Positions 29,714-51,916 of a stretch of 64,000 nt of DNA are shown here, piece by piece. Each line of letters opens with the position of its first letter. The stretch's first letter is position 1. The position numbers and the translations under genes were made by a program. Below the pieces are notes generated by a model. It ran no database searches and was not told the origin of the DNA. It was given only the letters and a program-made list of their open reading frames with translations. This DNA is from Perlabentimonas gracilis (GTDB taxonomy: Bacteria; Bacteroidota; Bacteroidia; Bacteroidales; Tenuifilaceae): the NCBI RefSeq assembly GCF_011174675.1, contig NZ_JAANIG010000003.1:1-64000 (forward strand). Reading direction: 5' to 3'.

Positions 29714-32700
29714 ATGAAGCTCAAAATCACCCTAATTGCCATTGCAATCTCCTTTCTTTTTGGCTGTTCGCATAGAGAGAAGCCAAGTGACTCCACAACC
29801 GATTTTAGCAGCTATATTGCTGCTCACAGCGCGGGAACCATCTCGAAAAAGCAAGCCGTAAAGCTCAGCTTTTCCACAAACATAGTGGAAACCGAGCAGA
29901 TTGGAACAGAGGCCGATTCCCGAATCCTTCGGTTTAAACCATCGGTCAAAGGGACATCTGTATGGGTTGATGAGCGCACCATAGAGTTCAGACCCACCGA
30001 CAGCTTTAAGGGTGATACGGAGTATCAGGTATCCGTTGCGCTTAATAGAGTTTTCGAGAACACTCCTAAGGACGTTAGCACATACACCTTTACCTTGAGA
30101 ACCATTAAGCAGGCGCTGGAGCTAAGGATTAACGGGTTAGAGTTTTATGGCGATGCATCGCGAAGCGACAGACGCATAAGCGGCACGCTGCTTACTGCTG
30201 ATTTTGCAGATGCAAAAAGCATTGCCGAGACCATTAAGGCCAACCAAAAAGGCAAGAAGCTCGAGGTTACATGGATCTCTTCTGCCGATGGCCGAACCCA
30301 TAATTTTTGGGTTGAGAGCGTTGAACAAACCAATGATACAGAGAAGGTATACATTGAGCTAACTGGTGTTCCCATTGATGTGCATGAGTTGGGGTTCGAG
30401 ACCGTTGAAGTACCACCCAAAGGGGTGTTCAGGGTGCTATCGCACAACGTAGTACAATCGCCTGAGCAGTACATTGAAATACGTTTCTCGGAACCTATCG
30501 ATCCATCGCAAAACTTGCAAGGACTTATAAATGCAAACGGGATTGCCGAATCGAGGGTAATAACCGATGGCAACTTGGTAAGGGTTTATCCCGCCACGCG
30601 GGCATCAGGAACCTTCAACTTCGAAATATCACCCGGTATTCGCAATATCGATGGGCAAAGGCTTAATCAGCATACATCCATCACAGTACCCCTACAAACC
30701 ATAAAGCCTCAGCTGAAGCTCACGGGGCAAGGAGTAATCCTCCCTTCGGCTGGAGGGCTTGTGTTTCCTTTCCAAGCCGTAAATCTAAGAGCCGTGGATG
30801 TGAGCATCTTTAGGGTTTACGAACAAAATGTGGCGCAGTTCCTACAGGCTAGCAACCTCGATGGTTCAAGTGAGTTGACTAGGGTTGGCAGGTTATTACT
30901 TAAGAAAACAGTGATGCTCGACCAAACAGGCCAATCCGATTTCAGCAAATGGAATACCTACAACATCGACCTATCGGAACTAGTAAAAACTGAGCCCGGA
31001 GCCATATATCGAGTTACGCTCAGCATGAGGCGCGAGCACTCCACCTTCATCTGTCAGGGCGACGACTCGGATATGCCAATCACTATGATTGACGAGCAGT
31101 ACGACTCCAGCGACGATATCCCCCGAACATATTACTACTACGACGATATTGACTATGACCTTTACGACTGGCGCGAGCGCGAAAACCCCTGCCACACATC
31201 GTACTACCAACGCAAGTCGGTGCACCGTAATGTGCTTGCCTCCGACTTGGGGATGATAGCAAAAGCAGGCACCGATGGGTCATGGCTAGTTGCCGTCACC
31301 AATTTAAACACTGCACAGCCCATTAGCGGAGTAAATATCGACCTGCTAAACTTCCAGCAGCAAGTAATTGCCACATCGAGCACCGACAACAATGGCTTTG
31401 CCACATTTAACCTTACCGAGCAGCAGGTACCATTCCTGGCCATTGCCAGAAGTGGAGGGCAGCGAGGCTACCTTAAACTCGACCAAGGCTCTAACCTATC
31501 GCTTAGCGCTTTCGATGTTTCGGGAGCAGCAATACAAAAAGGGCTCAAGGGGTTTATCTACGGCGAGCGAGGCGTTTGGCGACCGGGCGATACCCTTTTC
31601 GTATCTTTTATCCTCGAGGATAAGGGCAAAACCCTACCCCAGAACCACCCTGTAACTTTCCAACTCACCAACTCTCGCGGTCAGCTTGCATTTCAAAGCG
31701 TAGCCACCGCATCAACTGGAGGAATGTATTCCTTCCCCGTTCCCACCAGCAGCGATGCTCCAACCGGGAACTACACTGCACGGGTACAGGTGGGAGGCGT
31801 TACCTTTAACCAAGTATTTAAGGTGGAGTCCATAATGCCCAACAGGCTTAAAATTAACATCAACTTCGACAATCAGTCGTTATACTACGGCAAAGTTAAC
31901 CAAGCTAAAGTTAGCTCGGCATGGCTTCACGGAGCCCCTGCCCGTAACCTAAGGGTACAGGTTGACGCCACGCTATCGCAGGCCAGCACCTCCTTCGATG
32001 GATTTAAAGGTTTTTCTTTCGACGATCCAGCCCGGTCTTTCTATGCCGAGGAGCAAACCATTTTCGAGGGAAGGCTCGATGAGCTGGGAGAAGCTAACTT
32101 CTCCCCAAACATCAGCGTTAGGTCATCGGCACCGGGTAAGCTAAATGCTCACTTCACCGCCCGTGTTTTCGAAGAGGGTGGTGCCTTCAGCATCGACAGG
32201 TTCACTATGCCATATTACCCCTATCGTAATTTTGTGGGCGTAAAAATGCCCGATAGCCAGAACCGAAGAAATACCTACATGACCGATACCACCCAACGGG
32301 TAGAGGTTGTAATGGTTACCTCAGAGGGTAAACCCGTGCCAAACAAGATGGTAAATATTGAGGTTTACAAAATTGACTGGCGCTGGTGGTGGGAACGCAG
32401 CAACGAAAACCTATCGCACTACATATCAAACTCATACCATAGGCCACTACAACGCGTCACTGTTAAAACCGATGCCAACGGTAAGGCTAGCTACAACCTT
32501 AGGATTAATCACCCTGAATGGGGCCGCTTCCTAATTCGTGCTGTCGATAACGAAGGTGGACATGCTGCGGGAACCATTGCTTACTTCGACTGGCCGGGGT
32601 GGGTTTCGCGCGACAGGAAAGCAACCCCCGAGGGTGCATCGATGCTAGTTTTTGCAACCGACAAGGAAAAGTACAACGTAGGCGAAAAGGCCACCCTTAC

Positions 32701-35254
32701 CATTCCTAGTTCAGCAGGAGGAAAAATATTCCTTACCATTGAGAATGGAGTAAAGGTATTGCAATCGGTATGGATTGATGCTACGGCTGGCGAAACGCAG
32801 TATACCTTCACCACTTCGGCCAGTATGGCACCCAATGTGTTTATTAGCGCTATGCTAGTGCAGCCCCATGGACAAACGGCTAATGACCTACCCATTCGGA
32901 TGTACGGTATTGCCCCCATTTCGGTTGAAAATCCGCAAACACACCTTACGCCAGTAATATCAATGCCCGATGTAATTGAACCCGAGCAAAAGGTAACTAT
33001 TACTGTTACAGAAAAAAATGGAAACCCCATGGCATTTACGCTTGCTGTGGTCGATGACGGATTGCTTGATCTAACACGATTCCGAACACCTAACCCTTGG
33101 GAAAGATTCTACGCGCGCGAAGCGTTGGGTGTCCGCACCTGGGATCTTTACGATCTGGTGGTAGGGGCATCGGCAGGGCGAATGCAACGCCTCATATCCA
33201 TTGGCGGTGACGACGAGCTTAGCTCCGGGGGAGACAAAACGGCCAACAGGTTTAAACCTGTTGTAAGATATTTCGGCCCATACGAGGTGGGCAAAGGGAA
33301 ACGCGAGCGGATTAGCTTCACCATGCCCAACTACGTGGGTTCGGTTAGGGTTATGGCCGTGGCAGCCAAGGATGGAGCCTATGGCTCGGCCGAGAAAACC
33401 GTGCCAGTTCGTAAGCCCCTCATGGTGCTAGCCACACTACCCAGGGTACTTGGCCCCGAAGAGGAGGTGGTGCTTCCAGTTACAGTTTTTGCTATGGAGC
33501 AATCCGTTAAGCAGGTTAAGGTAAAGGTTGAATCGAACGACCTCCTAACTTTAGATGGCCAAAATCAGCAAACTATAACCTTTAGCGACATTGGCGATCA
33601 GGTGGTTCGCTTCAAGATGCGTGCAGCCTCAAGGCTAGGAGTGGCAAAAGTAAAGGTTACCGCAGAGAGTGGCAAGCAGCGTGCAACGCATGAAATTGAG
33701 CTCGATATTCGTAACCCCAACCCACCCATGACTCACATTCAGGATACCGTGCTAAACGCCAATCAGATTTGGAATGTGCAGTACAGCGCATTTGGTATGA
33801 AGGGAACTAACACGGCTTTAGTAGAACTGAGCACCCTGCCGCCAATCAACCTAGGCGATAGACTTAAATATTTACTTGGATATCCGCATGGCTGCCTTGA
33901 GCAAACTGTATCCAAGGCTTTCCCCCAGCTATTTATTAGCAAGCTAGCCGATGTAGACGATAACGTTAAGCGAAGTGCCGAGGAGAATGTTCGCCATGCG
34001 TTAGATAAAATGCGTAGCTTCCGCACCGCCGATGGTGGGCTATCGCTATGGCCAGGTGGCTCCTACGCCGATGAGTGGGGCACAGCCTACGCCGGGCACT
34101 TTATCCTCGAAGCCCAAAGGCTTGGATACTCCATACCAAGCGGAATCCTCGATGGGTTAAAACACAGCACACGCCGTGTTGCACAGAATTGGTCGCCAGC
34201 AAATAGAGACAGGTATCGCAATAACGAGCTGATGCAAGCCTACAGGCTTTACGTGCTGGCACTGGCCAAAGCCCCCGAAATGGGAGCAATGAACCGCCTT
34301 CGCGAATCGACCAACCTTTCGGTATCGGCCAAATGGAGATTAGCTGCAGCATACAGCCTTGCAGGTAATCCCGAAGCGGCAAAATCGCTAATCCACAATG
34401 TTCCAACAACCGTTGAGAGCTACCGCGAGCAGTACTACACCTATGGATCCGACATTAGGGATAGGGCTATGATTGTTGAAACCCTTATCCTACTAAATGA
34501 TTTCGATAAGGCCATGCCGTTGCTACAGCAGCTCTCGGAGAGGCTCAGCTCAACCATGTGGATGAGCACACAGGAACTGTCGTTTAGCCTTTTGGCATTC
34601 TCAAAATTTGCTGAAGCAAATAAAACCTCACAGGGAGTTGATGCCAATATAACCATACATGGCAAGGGGGGTAAAAGGCACAGCACAAATATGTCGATAC
34701 TTCAGCATTCGTTTGAGCCCGTTCAGCAGGGCACGGCAAAAGTTGAGGTAAAGAACAACGGTGAGGGTATACTCTACGCCAGGCTAATTACCCACGGCAT
34801 ACCAGTGGGTGGCAAAGAGATGACTCAAAGTAATAACGTGCAGGTTGATATTAACTACCATTTAATGAATGGGCAAAAAATCGACCCACAGGCTTTAACC
34901 CAAGGCACCGACTTTTATGCTGATATTAGGGTGTATAACCCGGGCACAAAGGGCAACCTGGAGCAACTTATCCTATCGTACGTTGTGGCATCGGGTTGGG
35001 AAATCCGTACCAGCCGGCTCGACGAAGGACAGGCTGCACGCCCTTCCTCCCCATTCGAATATCAGGATATTCGCGACGATAGAGTTTACACCTACTTTAG
35101 CTTATCACAAGGGCAGGCAAAGAATTTTAGAATTTTGCTAAATGCAGCCTACCAAGGCAAGTACTACATGCCCGGCATTTCGTGCGAGGCTATGTACGAT
35201 AACTCGATAAACGCAAGACAAAAGGGGAACTGGGTTGAGGTGGTGTTGCCGTAG
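29714..35254 (+). CDS. Alpha-2-macroglobulin family lipoprotein with thioester
   Basis: 1846 residues, similar in plan to E. coli YfhM. The signal peptide ends in FLFGC, with the lipidated cysteine at residue 18. A series of macroglobulin beta domains follows, then the thioester motif GCLEQ near residue 1394, which forms the covalent protease-trapping bond, and an alpha-helical thioester domain around it. The bait region cannot be fixed by eye. Such proteins are thought to protect the periplasm from proteases and usually work alongside PBP1C, encoded 8.3 kb upstream. An acidic, tyrosine-rich stretch (YYYYDDIDYDLYDW) near residue 475 is unusual. Lipid anchoring on the periplasmic side is expected from the family. 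Confidence 0.95.
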   Translation: MKLKITLIAIAISFLFGCSHREKPSDSTTDFSSYIAAHSAGTISKKQAVKLSFSTNIVETEQIGTEADSRILRFKPSVKGTSVWVDERTIEFRPTDSFKGDTEYQVSVALNRVFENTPKDVSTYTFTLRTIKQALELRINGLEFYGDASRSDRRISGTLLTADFADAKSIAETIKANQKGKKLEVTWISSADGRTHNFWVESVEQTNDTEKVYIELTGVPIDVHELGFETVEVPPKGVFRVLSHNVVQSPEQYIEIRFSEPIDPSQNLQGLINANGIAESRVITDGNLVRVYPATRASGTFNFEISPGIRNIDGQRLNQHTSITVPLQTIKPQLKLTGQGVILPSAGGLVFPFQAVNLRAVDVSIFRVYEQNVAQFLQASNLDGSSELTRVGRLLLKKTVMLDQTGQSDFSKWNTYNIDLSELVKTEPGAIYRVTLSMRREHSTFICQGDDSDMPITMIDEQYDSSDDIPRTYYYYDDIDYDLYDWRERENPCHTSYYQRKSVHRNVLASDLGMIAKAGTDGSWLVAVTNLNTAQPISGVNIDLLNFQQQVIATSSTDNNGFATFNLTEQQVPFLAIARSGGQRGYLKLDQGSNLSLSAFDVSGAAIQKGLKGFIYGERGVWRPGDTLFVSFILEDKGKTLPQNHPVTFQLTNSRGQLAFQSVATASTGGMYSFPVPTSSDAPTGNYTARVQVGGVTFNQVFKVESIMPNRLKININFDNQSLYYGKVNQAKVSSAWLHGAPARNLRVQVDATLSQASTSFDGFKGFSFDDPARSFYAEEQTIFEGRLDELGEANFSPNISVRSSAPGKLNAHFTARVFEEGGAFSIDRFTMPYYPYRNFVGVKMPDSQNRRNTYMTDTTQRVEVVMVTSEGKPVPNKMVNIEVYKIDWRWWWERSNENLSHYISNSYHRPLQRVTVKTDANGKASYNLRINHPEWGRFLIRAVDNEGGHAAGTIAYFDWPGWVSRDRKATPEGASMLVFATDKEKYNVGEKATLTIPSSAGGKIFLTIENGVKVLQSVWIDATAGETQYTFTTSASMAPNVFISAMLVQPHGQTANDLPIRMYGIAPISVENPQTHLTPVISMPDVIEPEQKVTITVTEKNGNPMAFTLAVVDDGLLDLTRFRTPNPWERFYAREALGVRTWDLYDLVVGASAGRMQRLISIGGDDELSSGGDKTANRFKPVVRYFGPYEVGKGKRERISFTMPNYVGSVRVMAVAAKDGAYGSAEKTVPVRKPLMVLATLPRVLGPEEEVVLPVTVFAMEQSVKQVKVKVESNDLLTLDGQNQQTITFSDIGDQVVRFKMRAASRLGVAKVKVTAESGKQRATHEIELDIRNPNPPMTHIQDTVLNANQIWNVQYSAFGMKGTNTALVELSTLPPINLGDRLKYLLGYPHGCLEQTVSKAFPQLFISKLADVDDNVKRSAEENVRHALDKMRSFRTADGGLSLWPGGSYADEWGTAYAGHFILEAQRLGYSIPSGILDGLKHSTRRVAQNWSPANRDRYRNNELMQAYRLYVLALAKAPEMGAMNRLRESTNLSVSAKWRLAAAYSLAGNPEAAKSLIHNVPTTVESYREQYYTYGSDIRDRAMIVETLILLNDFDKAMPLLQQLSERLSSTMWMSTQELSFSLLAFSKFAEANKTSQGVDANITIHGKGGKRHSTNMSILQHSFEPVQQGTAKVEVKNNGEGILYARLITHGIPVGGKEMTQSNNVQVDINYHLMNGQKIDPQALTQGTDFYADIRVYNPGTKGNLEQLILSYVVASGWEIRTSRLDEGQAARPSSPFEYQDIRDDRVYTYFSLSQGQAKNFRILLNAAYQGKYYMPGISCEAMYDNSINARQKGNWVEVVLP

Positions 35255-40708: not shown

Positions 40709-41416
40709 CTACGATGTAACCTCCTCGAACTGGCGAACCAAATGCTCATTCACGTTTGATGCGTAGCTGCTCGAGGTGGTATAGTAGCTTATTGAAAAAA
40801 CATTTTGCGTTGCGGTTTTATCAACCACCTTTATGGATGGCTCCTTGCTAACGGCAACCCAAGGTAGCAGTAGTAACGACCGTGTAATCATATCGCGTGC
40901 CTCCTGCATAGGGATGGATGTGCTAACGGGTAGCTTCATTTCGTAGCTTTGCAAACTATCGTTCTTGTTGAGCAGGTGAATTGATCCTGAAGCAAGCTGT
41001 GAGTATGGAATTTTTACAAGCTCGCCTTTGTGTGTTTCAATCTCAATAGACCTATACCCAACTCTACGGAGCAATCCCTGATTGTTATGTACCCCAATAT
41101 GCTGGTTTTTCTCAAGGGGCATTTCGGCCTTTAGAATTATGCCCGAAATAAAATCGCGAAGGAAATACCAACCGAAAATTAGCACAATACCAATTGCTAC
41201 GGCGGATACTAGCAAGGGGTAGTATGGTAAATCGTCAAAAAGCTGGTTAATAACCCATAGGCCAAAGGCAAGCCATATAATGAGTTCAACCACAGGGAAA
41301 ATTCTTGCGAGAACCCTGTACACGGCCCTACTATACGAAACGGTACCCAGCACCTTGGATAAATATCTAAGCACCACGAATATTCCAATGGCAAATGCCA
41401 AATAGTAAACTGTCAT
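40709..41416 (-). CDS. MscS-like mechanosensitive channel
   Basis: 235 residues. Three hydrophobic helices at the N-terminus (about 3-18, 35-58 and 66-90) lead into the MscS beta domain: GWYFLRDFISGIILKAEMPL, GLLRRVGYRSIEIETHKGELVKIPYSQLA. The C-terminal domain is a mixed alpha/beta cage segment. It would open on membrane tension and let solutes out during hypo-osmotic shock. The pore helix (about 66-100) is less Gly/Ala-rich than in E. coli MscS. It starts 21 bases after the stop of the giant SLC12-type transporter gene, in the same direction, so the two are very likely one transcript and one osmotic-response unit. Confidence 0.85.
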   Translation of the reverse strand: MTVYYLAFAIGIFVVLRYLSKVLGTVSYSRAVYRVLARIFPVVELIIWLAFGLWVINQLFDDLPYYPLLVSAVAIGIVLIFGWYFLRDFISGIILKAEMPLEKNQHIGVHNNQGLLRRVGYRSIEIETHKGELVKIPYSQLASGSIHLLNKNDSLQSYEMKLPVSTSIPMQEARDMITRSLLLLPWVAVSKEPSIKVVDKTATQNVFSISYYTTSSSYASNVNEHLVRQFEEVTS

Positions 41417-41437: not shown

Positions 41438-44400
41438 CTAGCATAATCCTTTTTCTTGCAAAACAGTTACAATGAATGGCTCGAGCAGGTGATTCACAGC
41501 CCACACCCCAACAAATCTCTCCTCAATTATTCCGGAACGATGCAAGTTTTTAATCAAAACAAGTGTTTGCTCATCGGACTGCCTGAGCACCCGTGCGAGC
41601 CTAGCTAAGCTGCATCGGCGGTGAATAATTATCTGCAGTATAACCACCAGCAGCTCATCGCTTATGCCCCTCAGGTACGAGAGGTTTGGCACTTCGGGCT
41701 TTCGAATATGTATGGTTTTACCCACCACCTTGGTAATACTCGTTAGCCATAGCTGCAAAGCGTACCCAGGGTTACCTTCGGATATATTGAAGTACTTATT
41801 GAAAAGCCTTGCGTAGTTCCATTCGGTTAATTCGCGCTCCTGCTTACCTTTGTACACCAGCGAAAGCCCTCCGGTTTTATGGCGGGCCGTAATTAAATCC
41901 TTTAAATCTTTTGCATCGAAGGGTTGGCACTCTATGCTGCCCATAAACACACTGTCGAACTTCTCAACCCTATTAATAAGCTGGTAAGCAAAAGTGCCAC
42001 AGTTCACAATAAAAAAGTTGTTTCGGCTAAGGTTTTCTATCAACGCATATATTTTGCGAATAACATCCAACCCCTGGTTATGGCGTTCCCACCATAAATC
42101 GAGATCGTTTATTATAATTACTCTTGGCTCGGGATTATTTGCAAGGTAAAACTCTGGATTGGCCTGTGTTCCCAATGCCTTTTGCAACCCCAGCATCAAT
42201 TCGCTGATGCTCGAAGAGCCACCCAGCGGTGCCTTTACAGAGATGACCCTATGCTTAGGGAAGTACTTCTTGGCGATATACTTTGAGAGGGTTGTTTTTC
42301 CTGAGTTCCGATCGCCAGTTATTAGCAATGCACCGGAATACCCCGCATTATATCGCGACACCACCTGCTGCGCAATCCTCTGTTCGGCTGGGCGCTCAAT
42401 CCATAGGTCTTCATTAAGCGTGGTGCTGCCCGAGAATAGGTTAGCGTAGTAGAAAGGCACCTTTTTCAAAACTTCTGCATCGCCAGCAAGCGAGACAAGC
42501 ATCTCCTGAACCGACTGGTTACTTAGCTTGTACTCCTTCTCGAAATTGGTTAGCTTCTGCGCTAGCAGCAACCCCTCACTCTGCGAGTACAATACCCCAA
42601 CAACCTGACGATTTACAAACTTTGAGATCTTTTGAACACTGGATGTAAACCAGCGGAAGCTTGCCTGCGATTTCTTCTTACGCTTCCGAATTTTATCATC
42701 GACCTTGCTATGCACCAGCTGGTGCAAAGGCTCCATGGCAGAAACCAAGTACTGCTGCAGATCAACATCGAACTTGGCAAGCAGGTCTTTAAGTCTTTTC
42801 TCCTCGAGTTCAATCTCACCAAGCAACTCCCCAACAAGCGTAGCACGTTGTTCCTGTTGCGACTCACTTGACGAACTATTGGTTTTCGCTTCATTCTGGG
42901 CAAGCATATTCTCGATATTGAATGCTGCCAAGCGTAGCTTGTCGCGTAGGGTTTTGGCCGTTAGTCTTAGTGAATCGGAAACCCCCTCCATTGAGGTTCG
43001 AGCCTTACTAATAAGTTCCATCCCAACATACAGCTGTACTCTGCGCTTGAAATCGATGCTGCGCACATCGCTTGCCATAAACTTCCCTTGCTCAAGATCG
43101 CTGAAGAAATTGTCGCTATTAACATCAACAAGCTCAGGCATCCCCTCAATAATAGCATTCACATCGCGGAAAAGCACCTCGAAACGCTCCTGCATATGGG
43201 GAGTATTTATCTCATCTATTCGCTGTGTTAAATCCGATGGGTTGGGCAGGTCATTGGACGATAGGTACTGGTTGAGCAGCCCCTTGGCGCTAGCAATTGA
43301 TTTAAGGATATTATTCTTTGTCCAAATATTCAGTTCCTCCACCTGTCGGCTAATCTTCACACCAAGCCTATAGCGCAGCGACATCAGCATGAACTCAACA
43401 TGAATCTTATTGGAGTATAGGGTAAGGTTATCCATCCATACCTGTGGTGCCTGGCCTAGAGTATCGGTAGTATGAGGACGCTTGTTGATTAGCTTGGCGT
43501 AGGATCTGAGCAGATGAGTCGACTCCGGCTTTTCGATAACAAAAATCATCCGTTGTAAACTTTGCACTAAGCTCGAGTTGAGATCGGCAGTGATCTGCTC
43601 TGTAGATTTTTTAAAGTCGGACAGCGCGCTCGACAGGTTGTCTTCCTCATCTGCCAGCAGGCTATCGAGCTCCTTGGATATATCCTCGTTGCCATGCTGT
43701 AGCTGCTCCAACTTATGGGGCAAATCGGTTAAAACTCGTCGGATATTGCTAAAGTACCTGAATGATATGAGGCCAAGCTGAGTGAAGAACTCGTTAAAAT
43801 CCTCGAGCCTGTTCTCATGCAGAAATAGTTCAGCCGATTTTGCCAGATCAACCCTTCGGCTTATGGGCCATCCGAGGAATGCTCCCCTGAGCTTGCACGT
43901 TGCTTTTGTAATACGAATTCGTAAGCTGTCGGTACGACGAATCTTAAACTCGGGGCGCGAGAAGCTAACCACCATCCTTTCGGGTATTTTCACCAGTAAG
44001 CTAGCTGACTTTTGCATAAACACGGCAAGGGCGTCGGCAAGGATACCCTGCCCCTTGGTCAAATCATCGGCTATTAGCTCGGCAATACGGCTTTTGACCT
44101 GAAAGGTATAATCGGAGAGTATCTTGCTGAAAGCCCAAGGGCCCAGCCCGTTTTCCTGCTCAATGGCCTTACGGAGAGACGATAAAATTTTGCTACAATT
44201 GCTCTCAACATCATCATGAAACTGGCTAATTAAGCCCTGAATCTCATTTACTGAGTTGTCAACAAATACGTTTTGCTGATGTCCATACTGCTCGGCAAGC
44301 TTACGAAGTTCGTTGGCAAGTAGTTCCTTCTCGGGATATCTAACAATATCGGAGAGGTTAAAGGCTTGGTTATGGGCCGCCTGGCCTTGGTCGGTGGTGC

Positions 44401-46591
44401 TTACCTCGGGTACTGTGTGGGCATTCACCACCTCGAAGTTCTGACTAGCTTCTATCACCAGCGATGAGCAGGGCAAATCGATGGCACCATTCACGTAGCT
44501 AACCCACGCCGACGACTCCTTATGCATATCCTGATTCATCTCGAGAATGGCCAAGCTGGCATCGGCCGACTCGCGCTTAATGATATCGACCTCGGGTAGC
44601 TTCTCCACCGAGTTATTTATAACCTTAACGGAACCCATTAGCCTTGAGTTGTCGAGGGCCTGATTTGCCAATGCGTAAACGCTATCGGTTTTGGTGGTGT
44701 TGTAGTTAACTATTAGCAGCCGCACCATTGTGCCTCGCCACTCCGAATCGGTGGTGATAAACTTGAGTAGGGCAAGCCCAAAGTTCAGATTACGGCTATT
44801 CCCATTCCACCATAAATCGACCCTTTTAGCTTGGGCCGGCGCTTTATTCTGCTGGTTCTTGAAATTATAAAATACAAGGTTGTAGTTGAGCTTATGTAGC
44901 ACCGAGGCCGTTTCGCAAAACCTTTCGGGGTTGGCCGAGTTCTTTGCCCAACCCATAAGGATGGTGTTTGGCTCAAACCCAGTGAACCCATAAACCCGCG
45001 ATATCATCTGCATACCCTCGTATATGTTTCCGCAAACATGCCTACGGGTAATAATGTTCCTACCACGATGATCGGTTTCTATTGTTGCGGTGGCCGTTCG
45101 GTCGAACAAATAATCTTCCTCGGGCTTTTCAACCAACTCAAAATTGGTAAATACCCCTTGCTTCCCCACTATGGTTCGGCCCATATCCACCAAATGTGGC
45201 CGAGCCTTAGCCCCTCCGCTGAAAAGGATTACGTTGGGGCGCCAGTTTCGCTGATTTCTTGCTGTTGATGATGAGAGTTTGAACAGCCCATACTTAACCA
45301 ACGACGACCAAATACCACCCCACGTATCGCCCGACTGCAAACGAAGCTCCTTACGCTTAAAGAATAGAAATATGGCACCCAGTATAATGGTTGCCCCAAT
45401 CATGGCAATAAAATCGAGCTGAATCATCACCACAAAACAGGCAATGGCACCAATTATGCTTATCCAGCCCGGAATGCGGAACGATGGGCGGAAGTCGGCT
45501 CCAGCCCAATTCTCGATGGCGCAGGTTAGGTTTAAAAACCCGTAGGTGATGATAAAAAACATGGACACCACCCGGGCTATTACGTTAAGATCGCCAATGA
45601 GAATTCCCGAAAGGGCAATAACAAAAGTAAGCAGCAGCGCATTGCGTGGCTCGTTGCCAGCGCCCACCCCCTTGGCAAAAAGTTTGGGTGTAATCCTATC
45701 CATGGCCGTAGCCTGCAGAATGCGGGGTGCTCCTAGTATGCTCCCAAATGCCGACGACAGCGTTGCTCCCCAAATACCTGCTACTACCAAGGGCGAAAAG
45801 AATGAGATATTCATTAGCACACCGGGGTCGTTTATCAACGTATTTCTATCCACAGTATAAGAAAAGAAGAAAACCAAACCGATGTACACAACCAAACCAA
45901 CCACTATGGCGGAAATTGTGCCAAAAGGGATTGATTTCTTGGGATTCTCCAAATCGCCCGACATGGATACACCCGCCTCGAAACCAGTAACCGCCGGGAA
46001 GAATATGGCGAATAGCGCTATCCAAGGTAGCGAGTTGGTGGCCGTGCCCACCAATGCGGTTTGGGGAACCATATCGTGCTTACCAAGCACTATGGACACC
46101 AGCGACAGCAGCAGAACAGCCAGAATAACAAACTGCATTTTTAATGCAAGGTTGGTGCTTATAAAGGTGATTATGGTGACAAGCAGTAGCGTTGCCGCTC
46201 CCGTAATGCGAATAGCATTTAGGGTGGCCTCAATGCCAAAGGCGGTAAGCAGCGTTTCGGCAAAACCTATTAGGTACAGGCTTACGCTAAACGATAGCCC
46301 CACGAAAAGAGCCAACCCCAGTGTTCCGCCTATGGGAAGCCCCAAGCTGCGCGAGATCATGTAGTACGTTCCACCGGTCTCCACCTTTTTGTCGGTGGCA
46401 ATGCTGGCCACGCTCAATCCCGTGGAGGCCGATATAAGATGTGCCACTAGAACAATCCCTAGAGTAGCCCACAGGCCAGCCTGCCCAACTATCCAGGGCA
46501 AGCGGAGATACATGATAACGCCAAGAATTGTAAGAATTGAAGGGGTGAACACACCCTTAAACGCGCCAAACTTATTCCCTTTGGTAGGCAT
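41438..46591 (-). CDS. SLC12-type cation-chloride cotransporter fused to helical region and P-loop NTPase
   Basis: 1717 residues. Residues 1-415 are an APC-superfamily permease with about 12 helices that begins FGAFKGVFTPSILTILGVIMYLRLPWIVG, the SLC12 (NKCC/KCC) signature. Residues about 440-720 resemble the SLC12 cytosolic domain (NWRPNVILFSGGAKARPHLVDMGR). Residues about 725-1370 are long charged helices without a recognised family. A P-loop NTPase follows, with Walker A GDRNSGKTT near 1425, Walker B VIIINDLDLWW near 1490 and a GNPGYALQLW motif; the last 90 residues look like a winged helix. The usual bacterial relative stops after the transporter or its regulatory domain. The next gene, 21 bases on, is an MscS-like channel. 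ATP-gated or volume-linked ion uptake is an inference. Confidence 0.85.
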   Translation of the reverse strand: MPTKGNKFGAFKGVFTPSILTILGVIMYLRLPWIVGQAGLWATLGIVLVAHLISASTGLSVASIATDKKVETGGTYYMISRSLGLPIGGTLGLALFVGLSFSVSLYLIGFAETLLTAFGIEATLNAIRITGAATLLLVTIITFISTNLALKMQFVILAVLLLSLVSIVLGKHDMVPQTALVGTATNSLPWIALFAIFFPAVTGFEAGVSMSGDLENPKKSIPFGTISAIVVGLVVYIGLVFFFSYTVDRNTLINDPGVLMNISFFSPLVVAGIWGATLSSAFGSILGAPRILQATAMDRITPKLFAKGVGAGNEPRNALLLTFVIALSGILIGDLNVIARVVSMFFIITYGFLNLTCAIENWAGADFRPSFRIPGWISIIGAIACFVVMIQLDFIAMIGATIILGAIFLFFKRKELRLQSGDTWGGIWSSLVKYGLFKLSSSTARNQRNWRPNVILFSGGAKARPHLVDMGRTIVGKQGVFTNFELVEKPEEDYLFDRTATATIETDHRGRNIITRRHVCGNIYEGMQMISRVYGFTGFEPNTILMGWAKNSANPERFCETASVLHKLNYNLVFYNFKNQQNKAPAQAKRVDLWWNGNSRNLNFGLALLKFITTDSEWRGTMVRLLIVNYNTTKTDSVYALANQALDNSRLMGSVKVINNSVEKLPEVDIIKRESADASLAILEMNQDMHKESSAWVSYVNGAIDLPCSSLVIEASQNFEVVNAHTVPEVSTTDQGQAAHNQAFNLSDIVRYPEKELLANELRKLAEQYGHQQNVFVDNSVNEIQGLISQFHDDVESNCSKILSSLRKAIEQENGLGPWAFSKILSDYTFQVKSRIAELIADDLTKGQGILADALAVFMQKSASLLVKIPERMVVSFSRPEFKIRRTDSLRIRITKATCKLRGAFLGWPISRRVDLAKSAELFLHENRLEDFNEFFTQLGLISFRYFSNIRRVLTDLPHKLEQLQHGNEDISKELDSLLADEEDNLSSALSDFKKSTEQITADLNSSLVQSLQRMIFVIEKPESTHLLRSYAKLINKRPHTTDTLGQAPQVWMDNLTLYSNKIHVEFMLMSLRYRLGVKISRQVEELNIWTKNNILKSIASAKGLLNQYLSSNDLPNPSDLTQRIDEINTPHMQERFEVLFRDVNAIIEGMPELVDVNSDNFFSDLEQGKFMASDVRSIDFKRRVQLYVGMELISKARTSMEGVSDSLRLTAKTLRDKLRLAAFNIENMLAQNEAKTNSSSSESQQEQRATLVGELLGEIELEEKRLKDLLAKFDVDLQQYLVSAMEPLHQLVHSKVDDKIRKRKKKSQASFRWFTSSVQKISKFVNRQVVGVLYSQSEGLLLAQKLTNFEKEYKLSNQSVQEMLVSLAGDAEVLKKVPFYYANLFSGSTTLNEDLWIERPAEQRIAQQVVSRYNAGYSGALLITGDRNSGKTTLSKYIAKKYFPKHRVISVKAPLGGSSSISELMLGLQKALGTQANPEFYLANNPEPRVIIINDLDLWWERHNQGLDVIRKIYALIENLSRNNFFIVNCGTFAYQLINRVEKFDSVFMGSIECQPFDAKDLKDLITARHKTGGLSLVYKGKQERELTEWNYARLFNKYFNISEGNPGYALQLWLTSITKVVGKTIHIRKPEVPNLSYLRGISDELLVVILQIIIHRRCSLARLARVLRQSDEQTLVLIKNLHRSGIIEERFVGVWAVNHLLEPFIVTVLQEKGLC

Positions 46592-50428: not shown

Positions 50429-51916
50429 ATGTCCAAAGAAATTCGCAAGCCCAATATCGTTCAGGCTTTTATACCCATCCTCTTCCTCATCGTTTTTCTG
50501 GTTTTAAATGTGTACTTTTTTGGAGAGGACACTCTTCAAGGGGCAAATCAAATAGCGCTCCTTTTGGCTGCCACAGTTGGGGGTATTGTTGCGGTTTACT
50601 TGGGTCATAACTGGTACGACGTACGAAAGCAGGTGGTAAAAAGCATTAGCTCGGCCATGCCCTCAATGCTTATATTGCTGCTCATTGGATCACTTGCCGG
50701 GACATGGCTACTCAGCGGGGTTGTGCCCGCCATGATATACTATGGGTTAAAAATATTACATCCAAGCATTTTTCTTGTGGCATCGGTAGTTATTTGCGCA
50801 ATGGTATCGTTGGCTACGGGTAGCTCATGGTCAACTGTGGCAACCATTGGGGTTGCGCTACTTGGTATTGGGAACGCTTTGGGATTTAGCGAAGGGATTA
50901 TTGCAGGCGCCATCATTTCGGGGGCATACTTTGGCGATAAGATGTCGCCCCTGTCGGACACCACAAACCTTGCCCCTGCCATGGCGGGCACCGATCTGTT
51001 CACTCACATCCGCTACATGGTGCTAACCACAGGGCCATCAATCCTTATAACGCTTGTTATATTTTTTATACTCGGATTCACCTACGACTACTCTGGTGGT
51101 GAGGCCAACGTGCAAACAACGCTAAATGCCATTGAGAACACCTTTAACATCACCCCATGGCTATTCCTTGTTCCAGCTATCCTTATCATCATCATTATAA
51201 AAAAGATGCCCCCCCTACCTGCGCTAATGACAGGCACTTTGCTGGGTGCAGCCTTTGCTGTGATGTTTCAGCCCCACGTAGTGGAACAGGTTTCGGGGAT
51301 TACTAGCAGCTACACCATGTCGTCGTACGTGGCCATAATGCAAAGCATGTTTGGTGATATTTCGATAATTACTGAGGATGCTCAGGTAAACGACCTGCTA
51401 AGCACCCACGGAATGGCAGGAATGCTTAACACCATATGGCTCATCCTATCGGCCATGATATTTGGTGGTGTGATGGAGGCTGCAGGTTTACTTGTGCGCA
51501 TAACCGAAAGCGTAATCCGTTTTGCCAAAACCACGGGCTCACTGGTGGCCACAACTGTTGGAACCTGTATGTTTTTCAATATAACTGCTTCCGATCAGTA
51601 CATCTCCATTGTTGTTCCAGGTAGGATGTTTGCAAAAACTTACCGCGACCGAGGTCTAAAACCCGAGGTGCTTAGCCGTACCCTTGAGGATTCGGGAACG
51701 GTTACATCGGTGCTAATTCCGTGGAACACCTGCGGGGCTACCCAATCGGCGGTACTGGGCGTTCCCGTACTCACCTATTTGCCCTACGCTTTCTTCAATA
51801 TCATCAGCCCATTCATGAGTATTTTCATGGCATCATTCAACATCAAAATCAGACGGTTCGCCGATGATGACCAGAACGACACGGGCAGCAAGCATATTGA
51901 TATAGACGACGAGTAA
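50429..51916 (+). CDS. nhaC: Na+/H+ antiporter NhaC
   Basis: 495 residues with about 12 membrane helices. NhaC family features are visible: LATGSSWSTVATIGVALLGIG near residue 130, ISGAYFGDKMSPLSDTTNLAPAM near 170 and the SDQYISIVVPGRMF segment near 388. It exchanges sodium for protons across the inner membrane and so controls internal sodium and pH. It stands alone, between a hybrid kinase on the other strand and an aminotransferase gene 243 bases downstream. The last 20 residues are acidic and polar. With the SLC12-type transporter and MscS channel it adds to the ion-homeostasis flavour of this part of the window. Confidence 0.93.
   Translation: MSKEIRKPNIVQAFIPILFLIVFLVLNVYFFGEDTLQGANQIALLLAATVGGIVAVYLGHNWYDVRKQVVKSISSAMPSMLILLLIGSLAGTWLLSGVVPAMIYYGLKILHPSIFLVASVVICAMVSLATGSSWSTVATIGVALLGIGNALGFSEGIIAGAIISGAYFGDKMSPLSDTTNLAPAMAGTDLFTHIRYMVLTTGPSILITLVIFFILGFTYDYSGGEANVQTTLNAIENTFNITPWLFLVPAILIIIIIKKMPPLPALMTGTLLGAAFAVMFQPHVVEQVSGITSSYTMSSYVAIMQSMFGDISIITEDAQVNDLLSTHGMAGMLNTIWLILSAMIFGGVMEAAGLLVRITESVIRFAKTTGSLVATTVGTCMFFNITASDQYISIVVPGRMFAKTYRDRGLKPEVLSRTLEDSGTVTSVLIPWNTCGATQSAVLGVPVLTYLPYAFFNIISPFMSIFMASFNIKIRRFADDDQNDTGSKHIDIDDE

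Follow-up and report, generated by a model that had tools for sequence, protein, structure and literature searches.

The window analyzed here, a stretch of 64,000 nucleotides from Perlabentimonas gracilis, carries on its minus strand a single open reading frame (positions 41438-46591) that begins with ATG, contains no internal stops, and extends for 1717 codons. The encoded protein is a fusion whose architecture is, in order, an NKCC-like SLC12 permease, a CCC domain, a helical domain of two repeats, an AAA+ ATPase of the Orc/Cdc6 type, and a winged helix. The SLC12/CCC permease domain spans residues 1-415 (45347-46591, minus strand), as delimited by Pfam AA_permease and alignment to human NKCC1, and the CCC-type cytosolic domain spans approximately residues 440-720 (44432-45274, minus strand), as delimited by TIGR00930 and the NKCC1/KCC alignment. 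The helical domain (residues 743-1299; 42695-44365, minus strand) was assigned by AlphaFold2 and by aligning its repeats to each other with hhalign. It is followed by the AAA+ domain (residues 1378-1632; 41696-42460, minus strand), assigned by PF00004 and an AlphaFold2 model, and by the C-terminal winged helix (residues 1636-1717; 41441-41686, minus strand), assigned by AlphaFold2 secondary structure and a match to ORC2. Within the AAA+ domain, the Walker A motif GDRNSGKT occupies residues 1426-1433 (42293-42316, minus strand), with the conserved lysine at K1432, and the Walker B region VIIINDLDLWW lies at residues 1491-1501 (42089-42121, minus strand). An MscS-like gene of 235 codons (40709-41416, minus strand) lies 21 bp downstream of the fusion. 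The original prediction had described one frame joining all of these parts, both Walker motifs, and the MscS-like neighbor, and each was located as described. Two further genes were noted in the window: a Na+/H+ antiporter (PF03553) at 50429-51916, 3.8 kb upstream of the fusion on the opposite strand, and a bacterial alpha-2-macroglobulin of 1846 amino acids at 29714-35254.

We considered whether so long a frame could be accidental. Preservation by chance was excluded, since orthologs that are 22-59% identical span the entire length and dN/dS for the whole fusion, estimated from two close orthologs, is 0.12. The same pair gives 0.15 for the helical region, 0.05 for the NTPase, and 0.16 for the MscS gene. 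An artifact or a chimeric contig was also excluded, as the same full length recurs across many genomes and phyla. Mean identity to the window protein is highest in the permease (62%) and lowest in the helical region (17%).

The fusion is widely distributed. A search of 60 relatives recovered the full-length fusion in all four genomes of the same genus at 56-59% identity and in five further families at 34-41% identity, while two remoter members were split by the search into pieces of a single frame; 12 full-length proteins could be aligned end to end. A scan of 84,980 species genomes retained 80 loci, 73 of which are full SLC12-helical-NTPase frames. These loci are found in the Bacteroidales, Cyclobacteriaceae, Saprospiraceae, Ignavibacteria, Chlorobiota, Calditrichota, Latescibacterota, Myxococcales/Polyangiaceae (Myxococcota), and Thermodesulfobacteriota, the last represented by Desulfoluna limicola, a cultured isolate with a complete genome that encodes both the fusion and its MscS partner (L197). 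The expectation that the fusion would be conserved in other Bacteroidota is therefore borne out and extends beyond that phylum. Among the observations that the original prediction had named as counting against it, relatives lacking the NTPase and stops between the parts both exist, but rarely: two genomes encode a close SLC12 protein without the NTPase, and an in-frame stop between or within parts occurs at two loci only. The splits at L174 and L125/L233, which we initially read as natural fissions, were not used as evidence, because the halves share a frame and a nonsense change or an assembly error is equally likely.

The permease region is readily assigned to the cation-chloride cotransporters. 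Residues 14-412 match Pfam AA_permease (6e-49), the NCBIfam K-Cl cotransporter model TIGR00930 covers residues 3-670 (4e-111), and the closest PDB relatives are NKCC1 (6e-73) and the KCCs, with the NKCC1/KCC alignment covering residues 449-629 of the cytosolic domain. Alignment to human NKCC1 (7d10) equates A276, S279, and S280 of the window protein with A610, S613, and S614 of the NKCC1 Na+ site, and Y106, P199, and T202 with Y383, P496, and T499 of the K+ site; the roles of these NKCC1 residues are taken from published work (PMC7889885 and PMC7035313). Across 48 full-length fusions, the Na+ site is conserved at A276 in 47, S279 in 46, and S280 in 45, and the K+ site at Y106 in 45, P199 in all 48, and T202 in 42. 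The fusion accordingly presents the hallmarks of the SLC12/CCC family, namely an APC-fold permease with a CCC cytosolic domain, the K+-site tyrosine, and the TM6 proline and threonine, and it retains the Ala/Ser/Ser set of the Na+-dependent SLC12 branch. Because both ion sites are conserved among the fusions, the permease is predicted to function as an NKCC-type Na+-K+-Cl- symporter. The same sites are common to stand-alone bacterial SLC12 proteins in the same order and are thus not peculiar to the fusion.

The remainder of the protein was modeled with AlphaFold2 over residues 700-1717 using 48 homologs, with a mean pLDDT of 82. Modeled alone, the helical region (743-1299) reached a pLDDT of 89.9 and a pTM of 0.85, and it consists of two tandem repeats built of long helix hairpins, together with a small beta element. 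The two repeats match each other in a profile comparison (hhalign, E 1.9e-6). Neither Foldseek, at E<=0.001 against PDB structures, nor Pfam returned a match for this domain, and a PDB profile search with the alignment of the C-terminal portion returned only generic helical and P-loop chance matches. With VIA, the top-scoring structure was a designed helical bundle, whose Z of 12.4 falls within the range noted for unrelated long-helix proteins, so we do not assign the helical domain to a known fold.

The final approximately 340 residues adopt an AAA+ fold with a winged helix in the AlphaFold2 model. PF00004 covers residues 1422-1536, barely over its cutoff (3e-4). The modeled AAA+ and winged-helix portion matches the archaeal ORC2 of Aeropyrum pernix (1w5t) with Z 16.2 over 323 residues, which supports the winged-helix end originally proposed; the AAA+ model also matches NSF D2 (1nsf; Z 14.9), and TnsC is among the nearest structures. 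The P-loop with its Walker A lysine, the AAA+ fold with an alpha-helical lid, and a GNPG-like motif are all present. The lysine is found in 53 of 53 SLC12-linked copies. Walker B follows the pattern hhh[NDE]D and in most copies is succeeded by Leu, Ile, or Met; the canonical catalytic glutamate directly after the Walker B acid was not found in the SLC12-linked copies, and ATP hydrolysis is therefore uncertain. This absence lowers the case for an active hydrolase without lowering that for a nucleotide switch. The tryptophan pair W1500 and W1501 is nearly invariant in, and specific to, the transporter-linked clade, and H1571 and R1570, the latter considered as a possible arginine finger acting in trans, are invariant. 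The region was originally described as a STAND/AAA-type switch. The AAA+ assignment holds, as an Orc/Cdc6 type with a winged helix, but the protein is not a standard STAND protein: a repeat sensor was excluded, since the chain stops at the winged helix in the model.

The MscS-like protein downstream contains an MscS beta-domain (PF00924, 1.8e-9) and three predicted helices, and we refer to its subfamily as compact MscS. Taking all classes together, 81 of 95 helical-NTPase loci have an MscS gene as the immediate neighbor on the same strand. Of the 73 full fusions from the genome scan, 3 run into contig ends, which leaves 70 that could be assessed: 59 have MscS next to them, and 11 were counted as lacking it, one of which (L241) is a frameshifted fusion with MscS adjoining its second piece. 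Of the seven MscS genes in the window genome, two adjoin its two helical-NTPase genes. Many SLC12 fusions (L177, L180, L182, L183, L190, L192, L193, L195, and L201) have a second, larger MscS-type gene (544-621 amino acids) upstream in the opposite orientation.

A profile of these compact MscS proteins was then run against the 295 genomes of the order that had served for the NTPase search. Compact MscS is present in 46 of the 50 genomes with an NTPase of the fusion clade and in 0 of the 245 others; the 50 comprise 39 complete single-frame fusions, with the rest being contig-end fragments except for G135, which is interrupted, and G191, which lacks SLC12. In seven of the 46 (G042, G095, G102, G191, G198, G205, and G311), the compact MscS is an intact separate gene unlinked to the NTPase, as it also is for scan loci L200, L202, L205, and L209, and the genome with L239 has one compact MscS, which adjoins its other fusion. 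Two of the four misses (G139 and G283) are fusions cut by contig ends, and two (G123 and G228) are true misses; compact MscS was also not found for three Chlorobiota-type fusion loci (L221, L228, and L237). Members of families f1, f6, f29, f31, f72, f73, and f110 that lack the fusion also lack compact MscS, and because the contrast repeats inside seven families, it does not reflect shared ancestry alone. Two Bacteroidota genomes have kept an SLC12 protein 56-58% identical but lost the NTPase, and compact MscS is missing from them as well. Conversely, G191 encodes a fusion-clade NTPase after response-regulator genes (L158:3820-6804), with no close SLC12 and with compact MscS elsewhere in the genome. 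The fusion thus almost never occurs without this one MscS subfamily, its near-obligate partner, and the association suspected from the neighboring gene proves far stronger than adjacency by itself would show.

The helical-NTPase is not confined to SLC12 fusions. A soluble class, found at 22 loci, consists of an NTPase of approximately 1000 residues followed by a longer MscS, which is adjacent at 21 loci, the remaining one being at a contig end. In a Trk class of seven loci, the NTPase is approximately 1500 residues long and shares an operon with MscS, TrkH, and TrkA; in a CPA class of two loci, it is approximately 800 residues long and is accompanied by MscS and an exchanger of the CPA family. 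The exchangers at both CPA loci and TrkH/TrkA at two of the seven Trk loci were identified by Pfam, and the other five Trk loci were assigned from similarly sized neighbors with matching N termini. A quick tree separates the SLC12-linked sequences (SH-aLRT 88) from the soluble and Trk-linked ones; the SLC12 side also contains four sequences labeled soluble, namely G191 and three contig fragments. Since related NTPases have MscS as their sole partner at some loci and are joined by TrkH/TrkA or a CPA antiporter at others, the constant pair is the NTPase and MscS, and the transporter is the variable part. In this respect the original interpretation of the module is modified.

Several members of these sister groups have features of their own. 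The window genome encodes a second, soluble helical-NTPase of 1029 amino acids (L026:4048-9102, contig C22), in which the Walker A lysine is replaced (GEMGSGIS); its own MscS follows, and another canonical MscS gene converges on it. An operon in six genomes (L092, L093, L094, L095, L096, and L116) encodes a protein of 414-422 amino acids with no Pfam match, a 1500-residue NTPase whose first approximately 1120 residues carry no assigned domain, MscS, TrkH, and TrkA. At L126:3288-7692 and L127:4690-9135, the genes for an 800-residue NTPase, a short MscS-like protein, and a Na+/H+ exchanger of the CPA family follow one another, and at L101:7947-10134 and L102:5161-7246 a short NTPase of 380-413 residues, without the helical domain, is directly followed by an MscS gene.

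The classes also differ in the MscS pore helix and in the Walker A motif. The fraction of Gly, Ala, and Ser in the pore helix is 0.18 in the fusion partners, 0.17 in the other transporter-linked class, and 0.37 in the soluble-class partners. As counted, this last group also takes in a small number of fragments from the SLC12 side and the two CPA-linked proteins, whose inclusion could only reduce its value. The Gly/Ala-rich TM3a pore helix of conducting MscS channels is thus not found in the fusion partners. The original prediction assigned pressure release to the MscS-like protein, which is now doubtful because the transporter-linked pore helices do not have the canonical small-residue packing. 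The Walker A lysine is kept in the transporter-linked classes and lost in approximately half of the soluble-class copies, so not every NTPase-MscS pair requires nucleotide binding. An atypical pore helix accordingly goes with a retained Walker A motif in the transporter-linked classes, and a canonical pore helix with a frequently lost lysine in the soluble class.

We propose that the fusion and compact MscS make up an osmotic control system of two genes, with the fusion as the subunit that carries both transporter and ATPase, a reading to which we give an even chance. The SLC12 part would import Na+, K+, and Cl-, the helical domain would serve as a scaffold joining it to the AAA+ switch, and sensing of membrane tension or crowding would fall to the compact MscS-like protein. 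Depending on the state of this partner or of the cytosol, the AAA+ domain would bind nucleotide and thereby raise or lower ion uptake, keeping turgor steady. A joint complex of the fusion parts and MscS, a sensing instead of a conducting role for the MscS-like protein, and the control of transport by ATP state, including its direction, are all inferred. Osmotic control is favored because the ion sites are conserved in approximately 45 of 48 fusions, the Walker A lysine is universal in the SLC12-linked set, and the NTPase is the part with a dN/dS of 0.05. It is further favored by the frequency of MscS adjacency in both surveys though the window genome has only seven MscS genes, and by the restriction of compact MscS to genomes with the NTPase, including the seven unlinked cases. 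The two genomes in which SLC12 without the NTPase is also without compact MscS, the retention of NTPase and MscS by G191 without SLC12, the sister operons carrying TrkH and TrkA or a Na+/H+ exchanger, and the loss of the small-residue pore helix in transporter-linked MscS all point the same way. Against it stand the missing catalytic glutamate, the NTPases beside MscS that lack the lysine, and the few fusions (G123, G228, L221, L228, and L237) without compact MscS; moreover, genes that occur together need not encode proteins that touch.

The main rival reverses the flow of information: the transporter or its ion occupancy would be the input, and the helical-AAA+ part would open or close an MscS-type channel as the output. 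The constancy of NTPase and MscS across classes whose transporter is interchangeable or absent fits this arrangement, as do G191 and the canonical Gly/Ala pore helix of the soluble-class partner. However, it is precisely the transporter-linked classes that have an atypical pore helix, the SLC12 ion sites are preserved as one would expect if the transporter works, and two genomes retained SLC12 after losing both partners, and we consider the reversed direction rather unlikely. We regard as improbable the earlier view of independent SLC12 uptake and conducting MscS release within one operon, with ATP gating the transporter only. Adjacency and the MscS fold agree with it, but the genes are retained together even when unlinked, which implies more than shared regulation; moreover, the pore helix of the compact subfamily is bulky, and the genome already has six other MscS genes.

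Two further explanations give the AAA+ domain a different role. It might be an assembly or quality-control factor, with a MoxR/ClpX-like role in building the MscS ring, the transporter, or both, instead of an acute switch. Orc/NSF-type AAA+ proteins do remodel complexes, and the fold matches NSF D2 and ORC, yet covalent fusion suits a stoichiometric subunit better than a catalytic factor, and versions without the lysine persist beside MscS in soluble classes; we judge this very unlikely. Conflict systems often combine large P-loop proteins with membrane effectors, and the locus could in principle be a phage-defense or suicide module in which a STAND/AAA+ sensor drives a membrane effector that collapses gradients. 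This is hardly credible given that PADLOC matches were weak, partial, and confined to the NTPase region, so that no described defense system was matched, that the neighbors in the genus are syntenic housekeeping genes (an E2 acyltransferase and a methyltransferase), and that the locus is under strong purifying selection with intact ion sites.

Osmotic control through the fusion may be one instance of something broader. We tentatively suggest that the helical-AAA+ unit is a general engine across several phyla that couples an MscS-derived tension subunit, a valve turned sensor, to the cation transporter of each lineage, providing direct nucleotide- and tension-controlled turgor regulation. Under such a scheme, the route of coupling could be fusion for SLC12 and a shared operon for TrkH/TrkA or CPA, which we put forward with the same reserve. 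SLC12 proteins set cell volume and chloride in animals, where control is known to act through kinases and cytosolic domains. If the proposal is true, a bacterial NKCC-type branch with an AAA+ switch and MscS would offer a simple system for studying volume sensing and its coupling to transport, and MscS proteins would be used as sensors and not as valves. That the arrangement recurs with TrkH/TrkA and CPA suggests an osmotic control device of general use that is so far undescribed. As the Desulfoluna limicola isolate carries both the fusion and MscS, the system can be tested.

No description of an SLC12-AAA+ fusion or of an NTPase-MscS pairing was found in the open literature, most subscription papers being outside the search. 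Like NKCC1, the KCCs, and archaeal MaCCC, the fusion has a permease with a CCC cytosolic domain, the NKCC1 Na+-site serines, and the K+-site tyrosine, but it bears approximately 1000 additional residues that form the helical domain, the AAA+ ATPase, and the winged helix. To our knowledge, known SLC12 family members have neither the helical domain nor the AAA+ and winged-helix portion. KtrAB and TrkH-TrkA similarly place turgor-related ion uptake under a nucleotide-binding cytosolic part, and one sister NTPase class lies in a TrkH-TrkA operon; TrkA and KtrA are RCK Rossmann proteins, however, whereas the regulator here is an AAA+ domain fused to SLC12 with an MscS-like partner. That partner shares the beta-domain and three predicted helices of the MscS family, which includes MscS and its bacterial cyclic-nucleotide-gated relatives, but it is compact (approximately 235 amino acids), has a pore helix poor in Gly and Ala, and is tied to a specific ATPase. 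With Orc/Cdc6 and STAND ATPases, the fusion shares an AAA+ core, a C-terminal winged helix, and a GNPG-like motif; unlike them, it is built onto a membrane transporter, has no sensor repeats, and has no glutamate directly after Walker B. Each component therefore belongs to a known family, and the helical domain and the combination match nothing found. If coupling between the parts is shown, there is a fair chance that the fusion and its MscS partner represent a new kind of system.
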